NCBI GenBank assembly: GCA_011090425.1
Contig: PHGD01000015.1
Location: 1 to 58,447 of the forward strand
DNA length: 58,447 nucleotides
Direction of reading: 5' to 3'
From: Nitrospira sp. LK70
GTDB lineage: Bacteria; Nitrospirota; Nitrospiria; Nitrospirales; Nitrospiraceae
Made by a program: the position numbers and the translations under genes. This document shows, in pieces, positions 1,958 to 45,896 of this stretch (its first letter is position 1; every line of letters begins with the position of its first letter). Under the pieces are notes generated by a model that was given only the letters and a program-made list of their open reading frames with translations, searched no databases and was not told the DNA's origin.

Positions 1958-2635
1958 CTATCCGAACAAATCCATCTGTGCCGGCTGGGAGGATTCAATG
2001 CTCAAGACCGGTGCGGCTGGGGTAGGGGTTGCGGTGGTTGACTGAGTCGGTTTGGAGTGGCGGTCTAGGAATTCCTTCAGTTTCTTGAAATCCTCTTTCA
2101 ACGTTTCAAGCAGGTTGCCTTGATGGAGGGCAGCTGCTGGGTGCAGCAACGGAAAGATGACGAAATTCTTCATGTAGAAGGCTTGTGCCTTTACCTTGGT
2201 GATGCCGACTTTGCGTTCCAGTAACGTCTGAGTGGCCCAGTTGCCCAAGGTACAGACCAGCTTCGGCCGAATCAATTGTATCTGCTGCATCAGGAACGGC
2301 TTGCAGGTTTCCACTTCGTCTTGCTCCGGGTCGCGATTGTTTGGCGGTCGGCACTTGATGACGTTTGCAATGTAGATTTGGTCGCGCGAGAGACCTGCCG
2401 AAGCCAGGAGGTCGTTCAGGAGCTTCCCAGCCGCTCCCACAAATGGCTCACCCTTCTGATCTTCATTGAAACCTGGCGCTTCTCCGACAAACATGATACT
2501 GGCATGAGGATTCCCGACGCCAAAGACAACTTGGCTGCGTCCCAACTTGGCCAGCTTGCAGCGCTGGCAGTTGACGAGGGATTGCGCGAGGTCTTGAAGC
2601 GGAGTGAGCTCCATGAGTTGTGAGTGCGACGACAT
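1958..2635 (-). CDS. Family 4 (iron-sulfur) uracil-DNA glycosylase with clamp-binding tail
   Basis: Removes uracil from DNA in base excision repair. Seen: the Cys-x2-Cys pair near the N-terminus and two later cysteines (Lys-Cys-Arg-Pro-Pro; Glu-Thr-Cys-Lys-Pro) that ligate the 4Fe-4S cluster of family 4 enzymes, the uracil-binding Gly-Glu-Ala-Pro-Gly motif, and His-Pro-Ala-Ala near the C-terminal side of the catalytic domain. A Ser/Thr/Ala/Pro-rich linker then leads to Gln-Met-Asp-Leu-Phe-Gly, which fits the bacterial sliding-clamp-binding motif QxxLF. ATG 2635 is preferred because a promoter lies just upstream; an in-frame ATG at 2692 would lie upstream of that promoter. The product is 225 residues. 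Confidence 0.9.
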   Translation of the reverse strand: MSSHSQLMELTPLQDLAQSLVNCQRCKLAKLGRSQVVFGVGNPHASIMFVGEAPGFNEDQKGEPFVGAAGKLLNDLLASAGLSRDQIYIANVIKCRPPNNRDPEQDEVETCKPFLMQQIQLIRPKLVCTLGNWATQTLLERKVGITKVKAQAFYMKNFVIFPLLHPAAALHQGNLLETLKEDFKKLKEFLDRHSKPTQSTTATPTPAAPVLSIESSQPAQMDLFG

Positions 2636-2638
2636 GAG

Positions 2639-2674
2639 TAGCGGTATCTTAAAAACGGTAAGCCAGGATGTCAA
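2639..2674 (-). promoter_or_regulatory. Promoter of the uracil-DNA glycosylase gene
   Basis: On the minus strand TTGACA (2674-2669) and TAAGAT (2651-2646) are separated by exactly 17 bases, with a predicted start site near 2639. The glycosylase ATG is at 2635, so the transcript would have only a few bases of leader and no Shine-Dalgarno site, implying leaderless or near-leaderless translation. Confidence 0.55.
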
Positions 2675-2710
2675 TCGAGATAATGTGGTCATAGAACGAG
2701 GGAGGCAGGT

Positions 2711-3331
2711 ATGAAGCTCACGAGCATGGGAACTATGCTGCTGACAATGTTGCCGGCCCTGACAACCGCGGCCTCGGTGGAGCTGGCGGCGTTTGCGAAT
2801 AAACCCTTTTGTGAAAACGTGGCGGCGTTGTTCGGAGAAGATCTGGATCTGAATACTGAGCTGTTGAAGACCGTGCAGTGGGAGCCGGTTGCGTTGAAAG
2901 GACAGGGGCCTACAACGCGACGCTGCTCGCGCTTCGACAGGACGAGAATGGATCTCGACAACGATGGAGGAGAGGATCTTGTGGTGAAAGCCACCTTCTG
3001 TATGAAAGGTGTCCCAAGCGACAGTCTCTACGTGTTTCCCGCCGACAGCGAGGTTCTAGAACAAACCAGTTGGCAGGACACCAGCCCGTTGTTGGCAACG
3101 CCGAATAAGGTCGAACGGACCGGCGGCACCTATCCGCTGACAGTGCTCAGGATTGATGGAGTCTCGTCGACTCCCAGCCTCACGACGGCCTTTTCGCTCC
3201 AACCCTTTGTATTTGGTGGGGTGGCCTATGTTGGGCTGACGGATACCCGACGGGAATGGATGGCGATCGCGAAGTACCGAGGCGGTGATCAGTTTGAAGA
3301 TCTGTGCTACTTCCACGCTGGAAAATCTTGA
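2711..3331 (+). CDS. Exported protein of unknown function
   Basis: This 206-residue protein opens with a typical signal peptide: Met-Lys, a hydrophobic Leu/Met-rich core, and Thr-Ala-Ala cleavage around residue 21. The mature part has four cysteines and an Asp-Leu-Asp-Asn-Asp-Gly-Gly-Glu-Asp segment near residue 80, resembling an FG-GAP or calcium-binding loop. The ATG follows GAGGGAGG at good spacing. It is transcribed divergently from the glycosylase. I do not recognise the family; a periplasmic or secreted protein is the furthest the sequence supports. Confidence 0.7.
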   Translation: MKLTSMGTMLLTMLPALTTAASVELAAFANKPFCENVAALFGEDLDLNTELLKTVQWEPVALKGQGPTTRRCSRFDRTRMDLDNDGGEDLVVKATFCMKGVPSDSLYVFPADSEVLEQTSWQDTSPLLATPNKVERTGGTYPLTVLRIDGVSSTPSLTTAFSLQPFVFGGVAYVGLTDTRREWMAIAKYRGGDQFEDLCYFHAGKS

Positions 3332-3743
3332 CTATTCGCCCATGTATCCTTTTGTTGCGAGCATGTACCCTTTTGCATCCAGTTAGGTTGACTTCCATCG
3401 CCCGTCATTGCCGACATTTCGAGAATACTGTAGCAAGACCAGACAGAACGCCGACAGAACAGACTCGCCTCTGATTTGCTGAAAGCAGCAATTCTCGACA
3501 ACTCAAAGAGTTAGCAATTACAGCTCAATTCTTAATGATAAGTAGACCGAAAAGGAATGAACAATGCATGTTGAATTGGCCTTGCATCGAACCGGTATCA
3601 GGAATATATAGCGGGATAGTTGAGGGGAAGAAAGTTGTCCCTTTTGCCTGACCGGTAACAATTCAAGTATCAGGCAAGGCATAGGGTTGACGAAATATAT
3701 GTCGGCTTAGCCGTAAGGGGTAGAGTGGATCAAGTCACGCACG
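3332..3743. other. Intergenic region with an 8-base inverted repeat
   Basis: No credible gene is visible in these 412 bases. TTGCCTGA (3644-3651) and its exact complement TCAGGCAA (3670-3677) are 18 bases apart, about 70-100 bases before the sigma-54 activator gene. It could be an operator for autoregulation or a hairpin. No clear -35/-10 pair or sigma-54 site was found for the downstream gene. Confidence 0.4.
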
Positions 3744-5300
3744 GTGTTCACCATGCGGCGTTTCACCGTAGGGCACCAACATATCTGCAATCATGACACG
3801 GTTGTTGGAGCAGCCGACTTCCAGTGGAAAGTCGTGCTTTGGGAATCCCAATCTGATCGGCTGAGGCTCATCGAACGCGTGGTGACAGAGTGCGGTGCTC
3901 ATCCCTGTTGTGTCGAGCAACTAGTCGATATTGAACAGGTCGCTCGTTCGCCCTGTTGCGCTGCAGTGGTCGCGCTAGGAAAGTATCAGACAGATGATAC
4001 CTTGGCCTCAAAAGCTGTCAGCTGTATGAAGCAGGCGGGATTGACCGTGCTCGCTCATGAACGAGGTACTCGTTCTTGGCCGGTGGGCATACGGTGCCGA
4101 GCTTTATTGGCCGGGGCCTCGTGTGTCCTCGACAGTGAAGAGGATGGTTTTGGGCCGGAGTTACAGCGAATTCTGACAAGTGTTCTGAGGCAGAAAACAT
4201 GTGAAACTGTGGAAAAAGAGCACAATCATGCGCTCATGAAAACCTTCGGCATCGAGGGAGAAAGCCATGCGATAGAGGACGCATTTCGACAGGCTTTGAG
4301 GGTCGTGAGTTTCAGCGATTTAGCCGTGCTGATCACCGGAGAGTCTGGAACAGGGAAGGAACTGATGGCACATGCCATTCATCAGCTTGACCCAAAACGC
4401 CGGACTGGTCCGTTCGTGGCGATCAATTGCGGAGCGCTCAGCCCGGGTCTCATTGAAAGTGAATTGTTCGGTCACAGCAGGGGAGCCTTTACCGGCGCAG
4501 ATCGAGATCGAAAGGGATTGATTCGCGCGGCAGATGGGGGCGTGCTCTTCTTGGACGAGATTGGAGAACTGGGCAGTGACGTGCAGGTCAAGCTCCTGCG
4601 AGTGCTGCAAGACCGCCGAATCATGACGGTCGGCACTGATCACGATGTGGGCGTGGACCTCCGAGTGATCGCCGCCACGAATCGTAATCTGGAACTGATG
4701 ATGCAGCGGGGACAGTTCCGGGAAGATCTGTTTCACAGATTGAACACGCTGTCCGTGCATCTTCCACCGCTCCGGGAGCGAGCAGCAGACCTCGAACCGT
4801 TGATCGGTAACTTTCTCACGAAGTATCGATCGGCTGCGAGATCAAGGACCACTTCGATCGATCGTGACTTTCTCGAGGCGCTCGCTCAATTAGACTTTCC
4901 CGGTAATGTGAGGCAACTCGAAAACATTGTCCGACGCGCCCTCGTCAATAAGGTAGACGATACGCCACTCAGCTTAAGTGATCTTTCTCCGGAGATATGG
5001 CGGCAGCTCTGTCAGCCAAGACCGGCGAGCATTGAACCACCGAGTCTCAACTCCCCCATGACTCCCGCACATGCCGATCTACCGCCCTCGCTCTCGGATT
5101 GTGTGGCGAGCCTCTGGACGCAATCGAGTCCTCAGGAATGGAACCTTGCGTGTGTGGTGGGGCATTGTGAACGGATGCTGATAGAAGAGGCGTTGAAATG
5201 TGCGCAAGGGAATCATTCTTTAGCCGCACGAGCGTTAGGAATCACGCCTCGCACGCTCTACAACAAATTGAAGAAGCACCATCTCGCCCAGGGAACGTAA
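3744..5300 (+). CDS. Sigma-54-dependent transcriptional activator with a degenerate receiver domain
   Basis: This enhancer-binding protein of about 518 residues would open sigma-54 promoters by ATP hydrolysis. Residues about 25-155 resemble a response-regulator receiver but lack the acidic pair and the phospho-acceptor Asp (the strand reads Ala-Ala-Val-Val-Ala-Leu-Gly). The AAA+ core has Walker A Gly-Glu-Ser-Gly-Thr-Gly-Lys-Glu, the sigma-54 contact loop Gly-Ala-Phe-Thr-Gly-Ala and Walker B Leu-Phe-Leu-Asp-Glu-Ile-Gly. A Fis-type HTH closes the protein (Ala-Ala-Arg-Ala-Leu-Gly-Ile-Thr-Pro-Arg-Thr-Leu-Tyr). The start may be GTG 3744 or ATG 3753. It directly precedes the large same-strand cluster and a candidate sigma-54 site, so it is the likely regulator of that cluster; the signal is unknown. 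Confidence 0.93.
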   Translation: MFTMRRFTVGHQHICNHDTVVGAADFQWKVVLWESQSDRLRLIERVVTECGAHPCCVEQLVDIEQVARSPCCAAVVALGKYQTDDTLASKAVSCMKQAGLTVLAHERGTRSWPVGIRCRALLAGASCVLDSEEDGFGPELQRILTSVLRQKTCETVEKEHNHALMKTFGIEGESHAIEDAFRQALRVVSFSDLAVLITGESGTGKELMAHAIHQLDPKRRTGPFVAINCGALSPGLIESELFGHSRGAFTGADRDRKGLIRAADGGVLFLDEIGELGSDVQVKLLRVLQDRRIMTVGTDHDVGVDLRVIAATNRNLELMMQRGQFREDLFHRLNTLSVHLPPLRERAADLEPLIGNFLTKYRSAARSRTTSIDRDFLEALAQLDFPGNVRQLENIVRRALVNKVDDTPLSLSDLSPEIWRQLCQPRPASIEPPSLNSPMTPAHADLPPSLSDCVASLWTQSSPQEWNLACVVGHCERMLIEEALKCAQGNHSLAARALGITPRTLYNKLKKHHLAQGT

Positions 5301-40573: not shown

Positions 40574-40697
40574 CCGTTCGCCCTGAACTTGTCGAAGGAC
40601 GTGCGACTTCAGGCGGTTCCGTTCATGCGTTTTGACCTGGTTCACCGCAGAGTTCGCTAAGCCCGTTCTGAGTCAATCGAAGGACTCACCACGAACG
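40574..40697. repeat. Two degenerate REP-like palindromes upstream of the TIR protein gene
   Basis: Bases about 40574-40605 and 40663-40697 are hairpins that share the frame CCGTTC...GAA/CG. The second reads CCGTTCTGAGTC with a partner GACTCACCACGAACG on the other side. They resemble the better-preserved copies at 43558-43590 and 43618-43650, so this 303-base gap is mostly extragenic repeat sequence. Confidence 0.6.
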
Positions 40698-40847: not shown

Positions 40848-43466
40848 ATGCCCACTGGGGACTTCGATGTATTTCTGAGCTATCACTGGCACGACCATGC
40901 CCAGGTGGAGGTGCTCGCCCATCGCTTACGGGAGCAGAATCTCACGGTGTTTCTCGACCGGTGGTATCTGACGCCGGGGCAATCCTGGCCGAAGGCCTTG
41001 GAGGCCACCCTGGCGAGCTGTCGGGCGGTGGCCCTTTGCATCGGTCAGGGCGAGATGGGGCCCTGGCAGCAGCGAGAGCAGTATCTGGCGCTGGAGCGTC
41101 AGGTAGCCGCCGAGCGTCGTGGCCAGCGTTTTCCCGTCATTCCCGTGCTCCTTCCTGGCGCCGAACCGCCGCTCGGATTCTTGAGTCAGAATACCTGGGT
41201 CGATTTTCGGGCTCGCGCTGACGATCCGGTTCTGCTGGCCACGCTGGTTAGCGCCGTTCATGGGAAGCCGCCAGGCCCGGATGCGCTGGAGACAGTCCGC
41301 AACACACTCGCCTCCATCTGTCCTTACCGAGGCCTGCTCTATTTCCGGGAGGAAGATGCGCCGTTTTTCTTCGGGCGTGAAGCGGCTATTACCCAGCTCG
41401 TGAGTGCGGTTCAGCAGCACAATCTCGTGGCGGTGGTTGGGGCGTCGGGCAGCGGAAAGTCGTCGGTCGTGAGGGCCGGCCTGGTGCCGGAACTGCGCAA
41501 GAGTCGCGATCGTGTCTACGAGATCGCGACGATCGTGCCGACGGATCGCCCGGTCCATGCCTTGGCGGCGATCCTCATGCCGTTCCTGGAGCCGGACATG
41601 AAAGAAACCGAGCGGTTGATCGAAACGAATAAGCTGGCCGAGGCGCTGCTCAGTCGAACGGTCGCCCTCCGCGATATCGTTGACCGGGTGCTCGCCAAGC
41701 AGCCAGGTACGGATCGTTTGCTCCTGATCGCCGATCAGTGGGAGGAATTGTTCACACTCTGTCAGGACGACACGGCGAGGCGCTGTTTGATCGACAATAT
41801 TCTGGAAGCCACGGCTATGACGAAGCTCTGCGTGGTGCTGACTCTGCGGGGAGATTTTTTCGGTCGGGCCGTGACCGGCTATCGCGCCCTGTCCGACCGA
41901 CTGCAAGGAGCCCAAGTCAATCTTGGACCGATGAAGCGGGACGAATTGCGTCAGGCCATTGAAGAGCCGGCTCGGAAGGTGGGGCTGAGCTTCGAAACCG
42001 GCCTCGTGGATTTGATCCTTGAGCAGGCAGGCGATGAACCAGGCCATCTCCCCTTGCTGGAATTCGTGCTGCGGCGCTTATGGGAGGATCGACAGGGTAG
42101 CAGGCTGCATCATGCGGCCTATCAGGCAATGGGCCAACTTGAAGGAGCGATCGCCACGAAGGCCGAGTCAATCTATCGCCGCTTGAACGGGCACGATCAA
42201 CGGCGTGTGCAACAGATCTTCATCCGCCTGGTTCGGCCGGGAGAAGGGGAGGCGGATACCAGGCGCCGTGCGACGTCGAGCGAGCTGGGCACAGAGGTGC
42301 AGAGCCTGGTGAAGGCACTGGCCGATGAGCGACTCGTGGTGACCTCGCGGGTGACGGGCAGCGAGGAGGACACGATCGAGGTGTCGCATGAGGCACTCAT
42401 TCGGCATTGGGAGCGGCTCAAGGGGTGGGTTGACGCGGATCGCCGGTTCCTCGCCTGGCAGCAGCGCCTACACACATCGGTCGAACAGTACGAAGAGAAT
42501 CCCAAGGACGCCGGTGTTCTCCTCCGCGGATTTCCTCTCACCGAAGCGTTAGAGTGGCTGAAGAAAAAGCCGGACTCGTTCTCCGCGCACGAGCGTCAAT
42601 TTGTCACGGCGAGCAAGACGCATGTGATGCGTCAGCGATGGCGCACCGTTACAGTTGGTCTGCTCGCGCTGCTGGTGGTCGGAGGGCCTCTACTCTGGGT
42701 GGAGCGACATGGGGTTACGCTTAAATATGCCGGCTCCATTGTCATGGCACGGACGCATCTGGTATCAGTGGCTGAGCCGGAAATGGTCACGATCTCAGAA
42801 GGGAACTATCGACAGGGAGACCTCCGCAATCTTGGGTCCCAGGATGAACAACCTGTCCGACAAGTGACAATCGAACCGTTCGCCATAGGCAAGTATGAAG
42901 TGACATTCCAAGAGTACGATCGGTATGTGGAGTTGACCGGGGGTCGATTGCCAAGCGATGAATCATGGGGGCGAGAGAGGCGCCCCGTGATCAACGTCTC
43001 ATGGGATGATGCAGTGGCCTATGCGAAGTGGCTCTCTCAAGCAACGGGCAAACACTATCGACTTCCCACAGAATCGGAATGGGAATATGCAGCGCGTAGT
43101 GGGAGCAAAGATGAGACCTGGGCAGGGACATCGGATGAGAAGCAGCTGGTCGATTATGCGGTGTACCAGCAGAGTGGGACGGAGTCAGTTGGGAGCAAAA
43201 AGCCTAACGGGCTCGGCCTCTTTGACATGAGCGGCAATGTCTACGAATGGGTGGAGGATTGCTGGCACAAGAATTACCAAGACGCTCCGACTGACGGCTC
43301 GGCTTGGTTAGGGACGAATGGAGGCGACTGCGGCCAGCGCGTGCTCCGTGGTGGGGCCTGGTACGACAGGCCGGGGAACCTGCGTGCGTCGAACCGGGGC
43401 GGGGGCCTCGCCGGCTACCGGGGCAGCCTCCTGGGGTTCCGTCTCATCCAGGACAATTCCGAATAA
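40848..43466 (+). CDS. TIR-nSTAND-FGE protein, likely immune receptor with a variable C-terminus
   Basis: This 872-residue protein has four parts. Residues 5-145 are a TIR domain (Phe-Asp-Val-Phe-Leu-Ser-Tyr, then Gln-Arg-Glu-Gln with a candidate catalytic Glu), probably an NAD-cleaving or signalling unit. Residues about 165-590 are an nSTAND NTPase: Tyr-Arg-Gly-Leu, Walker A Gly-Ala-Ser-Gly-Ser-Gly-Lys-Ser-Ser near residue 197, and Walker B Leu-Leu-Leu-Ile-Ala-Asp-Gln-Trp-Glu-Glu. A membrane-like helix lies near 600-618. Residues 645-870 are a formylglycine-generating-enzyme (FGE/SUMF1) fold, ending in the region described at 43347-43446. TIR-STAND-FGE receptors are known in biological conflict systems. 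A DGR reverse transcriptase is not in the window. Confidence 0.88.
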   Translation: MPTGDFDVFLSYHWHDHAQVEVLAHRLREQNLTVFLDRWYLTPGQSWPKALEATLASCRAVALCIGQGEMGPWQQREQYLALERQVAAERRGQRFPVIPVLLPGAEPPLGFLSQNTWVDFRARADDPVLLATLVSAVHGKPPGPDALETVRNTLASICPYRGLLYFREEDAPFFFGREAAITQLVSAVQQHNLVAVVGASGSGKSSVVRAGLVPELRKSRDRVYEIATIVPTDRPVHALAAILMPFLEPDMKETERLIETNKLAEALLSRTVALRDIVDRVLAKQPGTDRLLLIADQWEELFTLCQDDTARRCLIDNILEATAMTKLCVVLTLRGDFFGRAVTGYRALSDRLQGAQVNLGPMKRDELRQAIEEPARKVGLSFETGLVDLILEQAGDEPGHLPLLEFVLRRLWEDRQGSRLHHAAYQAMGQLEGAIATKAESIYRRLNGHDQRRVQQIFIRLVRPGEGEADTRRRATSSELGTEVQSLVKALADERLVVTSRVTGSEEDTIEVSHEALIRHWERLKGWVDADRRFLAWQQRLHTSVEQYEENPKDAGVLLRGFPLTEALEWLKKKPDSFSAHERQFVTASKTHVMRQRWRTVTVGLLALLVVGGPLLWVERHGVTLKYAGSIVMARTHLVSVAEPEMVTISEGNYRQGDLRNLGSQDEQPVRQVTIEPFAIGKYEVTFQEYDRYVELTGGRLPSDESWGRERRPVINVSWDDAVAYAKWLSQATGKHYRLPTESEWEYAARSGSKDETWAGTSDEKQLVDYAVYQQSGTESVGSKKPNGLGLFDMSGNVYEWVEDCWHKNYQDAPTDGSAWLGTNGGDCGQRVLRGGAWYDRPGNLRASNRGGGLAGYRGSLLGFRLIQDNSE
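43347..43446 (+). other. Candidate DGR variable region in the FGE domain
   Basis: The codons spell Arg-Gly-Gly-Ala-Trp-Tyr-Asp-Arg-Pro-Gly-Asn-Leu-Arg, then an aromatic/Gly/Leu-rich stretch, then Leu-Gly-Phe-Arg-Leu. This is the layout of diversity-generating retroelement (DGR) target ends on C-type-lectin/FGE folds. Where other family members carry Asn (AAC), this gene has TAC, GAC, GGC, GGC, CTC, GGC, TAC, GGC, AGC and CTC: third base C throughout, with first and second bases changed. That is the pattern left by adenine-specific mutagenesis of an AAC template. No template repeat is seen in the window. Confidence 0.5.
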
Positions 43467-43557
43467 CCCTGTGCCCTTTGTTCTTTTACCCTTTGCATCC
43501 GATTCCGCTGGGCGAGGGGAGTCTTCAAGAGGTTGTGGAATTAACTGACTCCGAAAC

Positions 43558-43650
43558 CCGTTCATGGTTCGACAAGCTCACCACGAACGGAGAACCTCAG
43601 TATATTCAATGACCGCTCCGTTCGTCCTGAGGTTCTCGAAGGATGAACGG
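43558..43650. repeat. Two REP-like palindromes (33 bases each)
   Basis: Bases 43558-43590 and 43618-43650 each read CCGTTC-N21-GAACGG, with stems of about 11 bases: CCGTTCATGGT pairs with ACCACGAACGG, and CCGTTCGTCCT pairs with AGGATGAACGG. Each pairing has one or two mismatches. They are separated by 27 bases and lie between the TIR gene and the TA-like pair. They are typical of extragenic palindromes that are mobilised by RAYT-type transposases. Confidence 0.8.
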
Positions 43651-43670
43651 ATGGTCTTCCCGCAGCCTCC

Positions 43671-43972
43671 TAATCCCGAATGACCACCGAGCTGATCACG
43701 TAGGAACTGGCTCGTCCCGACTTGGCTCCTCGTATCAGAACCTCCGACACGTTGCGTACCTATTGGCGGATGTTCCAGTGAGGTCCCGGCTTTCATCTCC
43801 GGCCAGAACCACCAGGTTCCATCGCGCTTCCGGAACCAGAGTTGAATCGAGGTGTCCGGCAGCACCGAAATCGATTCCATGTCGAAATACGTCGGCGCGC
43901 GATTCTCGGTATGGCTCACCCAGACTTTGATCCATTGATTCTGATCGTGAGAGGACAGGACAGGGGGAGTCT
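43671..43972 (-). pseudogene. Detached, frameshifted copy of the 3' end of the lipoprotein gene
   Basis: About 302 bases match the last 302 bases (44862-45163) of the lipoprotein gene at 44861-45691, in the same orientation, at roughly 80-90% identity. A 90-base block shows 9 differences. The copy retains Asn-Gln-Trp-Ile-Lys-Val-Trp-Val, Phe-Asp-Met-Glu-Ser-Ile-Ser-Val-Leu and Arg-Lys-Arg-Asp-Gly-Thr-Trp-Trp. The frame shifts within the Lys-Ala-Gly block so the original ending (Ser-Ser-Tyr-Val-Ile-Ser-Ser-Val-Val-Ile-Arg-Asp-stop) is out of register. The copy breaks off at its 5' side. Confidence 0.75.
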
Positions 43973-44004: not shown

Positions 44005-44487
44005 TTATGCCGCCTTGCCTGATGTGGGCTTGGTTCGCACAAGAAGCTCGATCTCACAGTCCAAGATGTGCAAGAGGGACAGGAGTTGATCGACCGATTT
44101 GCGGTAGTTCGTCTGGTCCAGCAGACGGTAGAGCTGCGTCGGGGATGTCTTCAGCCGGCGAATGATCTCCCGTTTCGAGAGGGGACTCGCGCGTACCCTT
44201 TTCTGCGCCTCGACCGTCAGCTTATACAACAGCGCATCGCGCAAGTAGCGCGAGTCTTGGTTGTATTCCAACACCTGCTCACTGTGGACCGTACCCCCAT
44301 TGCCTGATTCCAACACATAACTGAACCCTTCCCGTCCCAGTTCCTGATCGACAGAGACGCTGACGATCGGATTGGTGCCGGTTGGTTGAGGATCGACCTT
44401 GCAGTAGGGAAGCCAAAACGACTGTTTCGAGGACTTTACGAGGAAAGCCTTTCTGCGATTGTTAGAGGTGACCGATCGAATTTTCAT
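44005..44487 (-). CDS. HTH protein, likely antitoxin partner of the DUF4160 protein
   Basis: This 160-residue protein has an N-terminal half of alternating strands and a C-terminal XRE-type helix-turn-helix: Leu-Ser-Lys-Arg-Glu-Ile-Ile-Arg-Arg-Leu-Lys-Thr-Ser-Pro-Thr-Gln-Leu-Tyr-Arg-Leu-Leu, then Ser-Val-Asp-Gln-Leu-Leu-Ser-Leu-Leu-His. A basic tail ends Ser-Gly-Lys-Ala-Ala. It starts at an ATGA overlap with the DUF4160 gene, so the two are coupled. An operator that would suit it lies at 44689-44702. The combination is a toxin-antitoxin-like arrangement. Confidence 0.75.
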   Translation of the reverse strand: MKIRSVTSNNRRKAFLVKSSKQSFWLPYCKVDPQPTGTNPIVSVSVDQELGREGFSYVLESGNGGTVHSEQVLEYNQDSRYLRDALLYKLTVEAQKRVRASPLSKREIIRRLKTSPTQLYRLLDQTNYRKSVDQLLSLLHILDCEIELLVRTKPTSGKAA

Positions 44488-44713: not shown

Positions 44714-44860
44714 GTGCGACTCGGGCTTGTACGCTTCTTGGGGTCGAAGGCCTTTGCGGAGCCAGACGTGGCGGCTCTGGCTGCCCGCGATCGGGCCTAC
44801 GCCCAGGAAATTACTGTCTTTTGGGGGGGGGGACGAAGTCATCGCCGCCACGATGGGACG

Positions 44861-45691
44861 CTAGTCCCGAACGACCAGCGAGCCAATCACATAGGAACTG
44901 GGTCTGCTCGACTTGGTTCCTCGTAGCCGAACCTCCGACACATCGCGCACATGCTCACGAATGGTCCAGGTGTTGCCGGCTTTCAGCTCAGGCCAGTACC
45001 ACCAGGTGCCGTCGCGTTTCCGGAACCAGAGTTGAATCGATGTATCGGACAGCACCGAAATCGAGTCCATGTCGAAATACATGGGTGCATGATTGTCGAG
45101 ATTGCCGACCCAGATTTTGATCCACTGATTCTGATTGTGGGAGGACAGGACACGAGGAGTCTTCGTCCAATCGACATCGGTGCATTTAAAGTCCACGAGT
45201 TTGCCGAACCCTTTACCGAGCCCGTCTCCCGGATCCGGAAGGGTGTAGCATTCGACTCCTCCTTCCATGTTCAAATGGAAATGTGTGAGGCCGATGGTGT
45301 CGAGGTTGACATCGCTTCGTGAACAACGTTGGCGGTAGGCCCAGCAGTCGCTATGTTTCGACGGATCACACATCTGCAAGGGCCCGAATCCGATTCGGGT
45401 CGTCCTGTATGCTAGCGTTGATCTGGCCTGGCCATAGATATGTTCCAGTGCGGCCTCATTGTCGAAATTGATCAGGCATGGTTGTGAACTGCTGTCGTTG
45501 GGACGGGCTTGTACGACCTTGAGAGGTTGACTGTCCCGCTCCCGTTCGGCCGATTGTTCGGGTGTGGCTTGCGTTGGAGGATTCAGCGGGTTCACGGGTT
45601 TGTGTTGAGCACAGGCTCCCAGTACCGCTCCCAAAACCATACAGAGAGTCAGTCCGAGAGCACTTTCATTGACCTGAGCTAATGAGCCCAT
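44861..45691 (-). CDS. Lipoprotein of unknown function, 276 residues
   Basis: ATG 45691 behind AAAGGAAGG starts a lipoprotein signal peptide with lipobox Leu-Gly-Ala-Cys near residue 27. The mature part begins with Gln/Pro/Thr-rich sequence and then a mixed domain with seven cysteines. Near the end is Asn-Gln-Trp-Ile-Lys-Ile-Trp-Val, Phe-Asp-Met-Asp-Ser-Ile-Ser-Val-Leu and Trp-Phe-Arg-Lys-Arg-Asp-Gly-Thr-Trp-Trp-Tyr-Trp-Pro-Glu, a strand-rich block that recurs in the detached copy at 43671-43972. No family is recognised. Confidence 0.75.
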   Translation of the reverse strand: MGSLAQVNESALGLTLCMVLGAVLGACAQHKPVNPLNPPTQATPEQSAERERDSQPLKVVQARPNDSSSQPCLINFDNEAALEHIYGQARSTLAYRTTRIGFGPLQMCDPSKHSDCWAYRQRCSRSDVNLDTIGLTHFHLNMEGGVECYTLPDPGDGLGKGFGKLVDFKCTDVDWTKTPRVLSSHNQNQWIKIWVGNLDNHAPMYFDMDSISVLSDTSIQLWFRKRDGTWWYWPELKAGNTWTIREHVRDVSEVRLRGTKSSRPSSYVIGSLVVRD

Positions 45692-45896
45692 CGCCCTTCC
45701 TTTCTCTTGCGCCAACGCGAGCCGGCACACCGCTTCTCATTCATTAGCTCAAAGTTCAATTGTAGCAGGTTGAACTGCGAGGCTTTCCGTTATTTACTCA
45801 TGAAAAAAACGCGTGGTATAGTCCGTCGCCCTGAACCTGAATCGGCAGCATTGTCTCAGGGAGATGAATTGATTGCAATGAACCAATGGAGCCAGT

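Follow-up and report, generated by a model that had tools for sequence, protein, structure and literature searches.

DGR-diversified sensors of the STAND/CLec type, some of them carrying a TIR domain, have been described by Doré et al. 2024 (PMC10907252), together with degenerate loci and activity in trans. The nSTAND1 domain was defined in PMC8195603, and large surveys acknowledge that remote targets escape them (PMC8144416).

In this work, we analyzed a gene of Nitrospira sp. LK70 located in a stretch of 58,447 nucleotides (contig PHGD01000015.1, hereafter the window). A first-pass annotation, made from the sequence alone, had proposed that its product is a candidate immune receptor with the domain order of conflict proteins. 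That order indeed matches the DGR-diversified STAND sensors (PMC10907252), and the receptor reading is supported by the results presented here, from which we infer an immune role. The present analysis adds a DGR variable region (VR), a predicted membrane helix and the apparent loss of the DGR machinery. The kind of protein, a DGR-diversified STAND/TIR receptor, is already known; its orphaned Nitrospira member is new, and no description of the Nitrospira receptor set was found in the open-access literature. Altogether, it is likely that the gene encodes a transmembrane immune-type receptor that was the target of a DGR and is now orphaned from its bAvd, reverse transcriptase (RT) and template repeat (TR), with the last-written VR in place.

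Results

Domain architecture of the receptor

The gene (40848..43466, +), delimited by ORF call, Pfam and orthologue alignment, is an intact reading frame of 872 aa with an ATG start codon. The domain order TIR, nSTAND NTPase, FGE noted in the first-pass annotation was borne out by Pfam, with E-values of 3e-22 for TIR_2, 6e-122 for nSTAND1 and 8e-54 for FGE-sulfatase. The nSTAND1 NTPase (aa 159-555; 41322..42512, +), assigned by Pfam, motifs and orthologue alignment, contains the Walker A motif GASGSGKSS (aa 198-206) and the Walker B motif LLLIADQWEELF (aa 291-302), both invariant across orthologues apart from a single Walker A position and conservative substitutions in Walker B. The P-loop, Walker B, nSTAND1 profile, N-terminal effector and C-terminal sensor that define a STAND NTPase receptor are all found in the protein. 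Hydropathy (2.1) and orthologue alignment predict a membrane helix (aa 600-618; 42645..42701, +) between the NTPase and the FGE domain; seven orthologues have it at the corresponding position, within a poorly conserved linker. The full-length relatives of the receptor are Nitrospira MAGs. The gene has no operon partner. PADLOC returned no full-length match to a catalogued defence-system protein, and its weak and partial matches concern the TIR or the P-loop, the best of them (4e-8) spanning aa 7-61.

The TIR domain (aa 8-123; 40869..41216, +) was assigned by Pfam, motif comparison and orthologue alignment. Its catalytic Glu had been singled out for checking, and a motif W73-Q-Q-R-E77, invariant in the seven orthologues, is present; it corresponds to the W-x-x-[KR]-E signature as found in PdTIR (W-P-Q-K-E) and SARM1 (W-V-H-K-E), with the putative catalytic residue E77 encoded at 41076-41078. 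As the full-length structure model was too poor for use (mean pLDDT 49), this motif was matched by sequence only, and it suggests that the TIR domain would cleave NAD. A profile alignment with SARM1 sets E83, not E77, opposite the catalytic Glu, and E83 is a less likely alternative. The same genome encodes a second TIR-nSTAND1-FGE protein, about 60% identical (L186, G000:C108:34000-39121, ORF 2352-4988), whose FGE domain ends early and carries no VR.

The FGE/C-type-lectin domain (aa 643-867; 42774..43448, +), located by Pfam, sequence comparison and structure model, was modelled with confidence (pLDDT 94). Its nearest structures are PvdO, FGE and the DGR variable protein TvpA (PDB 2y3c), the last with a TM of 0.80 and a likeness that extends to the sequence level. 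The catalytic cysteine pair of FGE is absent from the domain, whose only Cys, C805 and C828, are invariant in the orthologues and also present in PvdO. A catalytic FGE enzyme is therefore ruled out and the domain would act in binding. The cysteine pair shared with periplasmic PvdO, together with the membrane helix, suggests that the sensor is probably periplasmic, a topology deduced from hydropathy and cysteines only.

A DGR variable region at the end of the sensor

As judged from the pattern of adenine mismatches with TRs, the last 120 coding bases of the receptor (43332..43451, +) are the core of a DGR variable region. Compared with the consensus of eight Nitrospira TRs, the window VR is changed at 21 of 32 template adenines and at 5 of 88 other bases (Fisher p = 3e-11), and of the 22 bases that occur in the window VR alone, 20 fall on template adenines. 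As in DGR targets, the VR differs from the TR almost only at TR adenines and lies on a display fold, here that of a C-type lectin. Diversification of the sensor, which the first-pass annotation had suggested looking for, was confirmed by comparison between species: the FGE end is hypervariable and its changes fall on DGR template adenines. Neither of the conditions that the first-pass annotation had named as refuting, an unaligned catalytic Glu in the TIR or an invariant FGE sequence, applies.

VR/TR pairs from one and the same genome follow the same pattern, with 23 adenine changes and 0 of 86 others in G012, 21 and 3 of 86 in G058, and 10 and 0 in G066. Likewise, in the window's own genome, the VR on contig C121 differs from the genome's TR, on contig C155, at 14 adenines and at 0 of 87 other bases. 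This C155 TR was rejected as the parent of the window VR (10 of 87 non-adenine mismatches). The own genome has no TR that fits the window VR at all non-adenine sites, and the parent TR is a presumed one. Separately, a CCCTTTGC-CTTTGTTCTTTTACCCTTTGC stretch is conserved after the stop codon of almost all VRs of the genus, the dispersed ones included (e.g. 43464-43500); a homing signal and a leftover spacer are the candidates for its role.

DGR parts elsewhere in the genome

When the own genome was searched with the final coding bases of the receptor, similar ends turned up on other contigs, along with an AAC-rich repeat at C155:1396-1517, directly after an RT with the motifs IGNLTSQ and YVDD, typical of DGR RTs. 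Overall, this genome holds one template repeat and eight dispersed VR-like ends (C24, C169, C104, C48 twice, C121, C90 and C170). The earlier description of the receptor gene as standing alone has to be qualified in that seven further genes or fragments of its genome bear the same kind of variable C-terminus. Among them, the short TIR-FGE receptors on C104 (L032) and C121 (L033) have no NTPase, and an ORF on C170 (L035, 919-3720) encodes two TIR domains plus an FGE domain and precedes a frameshifted remnant of bAvd.

The RT on C155 is truncated at its N-terminus: the open frame has 284 aa, as against about 380 in relatives, the first ~100 residues being missing, and no other copy of this N-terminus was found in the 201 contigs of the genome. 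Nor was an intact bAvd found in the own genome, where only fragments adjoin the VRs on C48 and C170. The assembly has a completeness score of 99.98%. Several VR-bearing contigs are short, and the missing machinery could partly be an assembly-gap effect. Other candidates were discarded. A search for a concealed second TR, using a consensus derived from the own VRs, yielded further VRs only. By ORF and context reading, the RTs on C98, C35, C150 and C149 resemble group II intron maturases, and that on C68 is retron-like; the latter (L019, G000:C68:60000-68000, ORF 3593-4498, -) lies beside a helix-turn-helix gene and a nuclease-like ORF.

Apparent loss of the DGR cassette beside the receptor gene

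In the relatives, three orthologues (L040, L043 and L037) lie directly upstream of bAvd (PF22296), which is followed by a DGR RT and then, where the contig extends, by a TR. No RT, bAvd or TR was found in cis at the window locus. The bases after the VR (43464..43542, +) are homologous to the VR-to-bAvd spacer of the intact cassettes (84% to L037) over 79 bases, and this homology ends at the would-be bAvd start. Right after this break point comes a REP inverted-repeat pair (43558..43650), whose REPs at 43565-43589 and 43619-43643 are within an inverted repeat that is 83% complementary; another copy lies upstream of the gene (40575..40599, +). These are the only three REP matches in the 58-kb window and all of them flank the receptor gene, which agrees with the REP clusters reported beside it. 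The TA-like pair reported on its other side was not confirmed, since the gene at 44005-44487(-) has no Pfam or PADLOC match.

The sister genome G055 has a syntenic locus, flanked on either side by the same genes (MFS, ThrAld and ProA) at 93-96% identity, where the orthologue precedes a bAvd stub of 40 aa that ends at a REP. In the window's genome, REPs adjoin the window gene, another VR and the truncated RT, in the last case ~80 bases upstream of the break, while none was found in eight RT-linked loci of relatives. Of 13 REP copies with at most 3 mismatches, 4 are at DGR parts versus 0.03 expected, an enrichment whose p-value serves as a guide only, as the regions were picked post hoc and the two copies beside the window gene do not count as independent. 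Taken together, these results point to an apparent loss of the bAvd-RT-TR part next to the window gene, and REPs may have been the cause, although the RT break at a REP on C155 is possibly a misassembly. Further downstream, 43670-43972 and 44858-45747 both match the same part of G055, with about 300 bases in common; the segment that separates them, which contains the TA-like gene 44005-44487(-), resembles an insertion by which ~300 bases of the gene 44861-45730(-) were duplicated.

Selection and module exchange

In comparisons with orthologues, purifying selection acts on TIR and NTPase, with dN/dS of 0.05-0.09 in the TIR, the most constrained part of the receptor, and 0.10-0.22 in nSTAND1. 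The values are 0.07-0.17 in the FGE domain up to the VR and 0.4-1.8 in the VR itself, a short region with rough values. In most orthologue pairs the VR dS is below that of the flanking FGE region, as rewriting of VRs from templates would predict. VR identity is about 42-69% at any relatedness, even where the rest of the FGE domain is 84-85% identical. In WA-bin32 (L050), linker and FGE share 71-84% identity with the window receptor and TIR and NTPase only 27-32%, whereas the syntenic G055 copy has 85-87% in TIR and NTPase and 42-61% in linker and FGE. Judging by these identities, linker and FGE form a module that is exchanged separately from VR rewriting.

Discussion

In the mechanism that we propose, a C-type-lectin-fold sensor, probably in the periplasm, would expose the VR as a hypermutated ligand-binding face, and the membrane helix would join it to a cytoplasmic part that comprises the nSTAND1 NTPase switch and the TIR effector. 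A ligand on the VR face would induce NTP-dependent oligomerisation of the NTPase and this, in turn, activation of the TIR, whose output, NAD cleavage or signal synthesis, would halt or kill the cell. Excision of bAvd-RT-TR at a REP would have orphaned the receptor, whose VR would be the last one written prior to the loss. The steps of ligand, oligomerisation, TIR activation, NAD loss and arrest follow known STAND and TIR biology; the topology, the oligomerisation, the cleavage of NAD, the ligand, the role in defence and the halt of diversification are deductions of ours.

Several other readings were weighed. It is somewhat unlikely that the window locus is still diversified in trans, with an intact RT, bAvd and matching TR fallen in assembly gaps. 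Remote or trans DGR targets are documented (PMC10907252), the own genome has, on C155, an RT fragment and a TR that fits the C121 VR at every non-adenine position, which implies recent activity, and a number of VR-bearing contigs are short or stop close to the VR, as is typical of repeat-driven assembly breaks. Nevertheless, the own TR has ten non-adenine mismatches with the window VR, a search of the own genome found no other copy of the RT N-terminus and bAvd as fragments only, and the assembly scores 99.98% complete. An ordinary family of FGE paralogues, in which divergence and recombination vary the C-terminus and the adenine pattern is an illusion, is very improbable: the FGE region does vary by module exchange too, and the window VR differs from most TRs at 5-12 non-adenine positions, but the skew of its mismatches towards adenines (p 3e-11) and the linkage of RT, bAvd and TR to orthologues in relatives speak against ordinary divergence, and for the family the same-genome pairs with 0-3 non-adenine mismatches refute it.

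Nitrospira grows in flocs and biofilms, and C-type-lectin DGR targets elsewhere have roles in adhesion and cell-cell contact. The receptor might accordingly be an environmental or kin-recognition sensor, its lectin binding surface polymers or ligands of neighbours in flocs and its TIR acting as scaffold or regulator; a probably periplasmic sensor would also meet outside ligands ahead of intracellular phage products. We regard this as unlikely, given that a TIR, a STAND and a variable sensor make up a defence-receptor architecture (PMC10907252, PMC8195603) and that the NADase signature is invariant in orthologues within the most constrained part of the protein. An orphaned, DGR-written immune-type receptor is the reading that we retain.

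With only a truncated RT and one template in the window's genome, diversification may be frozen there, and the bacterium may carry a fixed set of once-adaptive sensors. It is tempting to speculate, as a possibility that we do not favor, that the dispersed receptors of this Nitrospira genome had their sensors written by a DGR and then frozen by REP-associated rearrangements, with whole sensor modules further reshuffled between different TIR or NTPase bodies. If true, adaptive-type receptors would have turned into an inherited, innate-type repertoire. In any case, DGR-diversified STAND/TIR receptors, hitherto mainly from multicellular bacteria, are extended to the nitrifier Nitrospira. Intact cassettes (G012 and G058), a stub (G055) and an orphan (the window) form a natural before-and-after series, which allows asking about the fate of a hypermutated receptor once its mutator is gone, and the clean VR/TR pairs make DGR activity directly testable by sequencing.

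Among the known proteins, the FGE enzyme and PvdO share the fold of the sensor (TM 0.81-0.85), and PvdO also the cysteine pair; in contrast, the FGE enzyme has catalytic cysteines, in a region that the VR takes up in the receptor. TvpA of Treponema denticola (PDB 2y3c) has the FGE-type C-type-lectin fold with the VR at its C-terminus but, unlike the receptor, neither TIR nor NTPase parts. The order effector, STAND NTPase, sensor is that of Avs (antiviral STAND) and bacterial NACHT (bNACHT) proteins, whereas the sensor described here is FGE/CLec and lies behind a membrane helix; to our knowledge, the sensors of Avs and bNACHT are not diversified by DGRs. More distant FGE relatives in Thiosymbion (L052) and a Thermoanaerobaculia MAG (L062) have DGR-like RTs nearby. 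The Thiohalocapsa and RT clade 5D systems (PMC10907252) share with the receptor a central STAND NTPase (nSTAND1 or NACHT), a C-terminal FGE/CLec domain with a VR and, in some, an N-terminal TIR, besides degenerate and remote loci. What sets the receptor apart from them is its occurrence in the genus Nitrospira, the membrane anchor, a single helix, that separates the NTPase from the sensor, the loss of bAvd-RT-TR next to a REP in the window copy, and the several unlinked receptors with one VR type in its genome: an orphaned, perhaps frozen, membrane-anchored and module-swapped state, with several receptors per genome.
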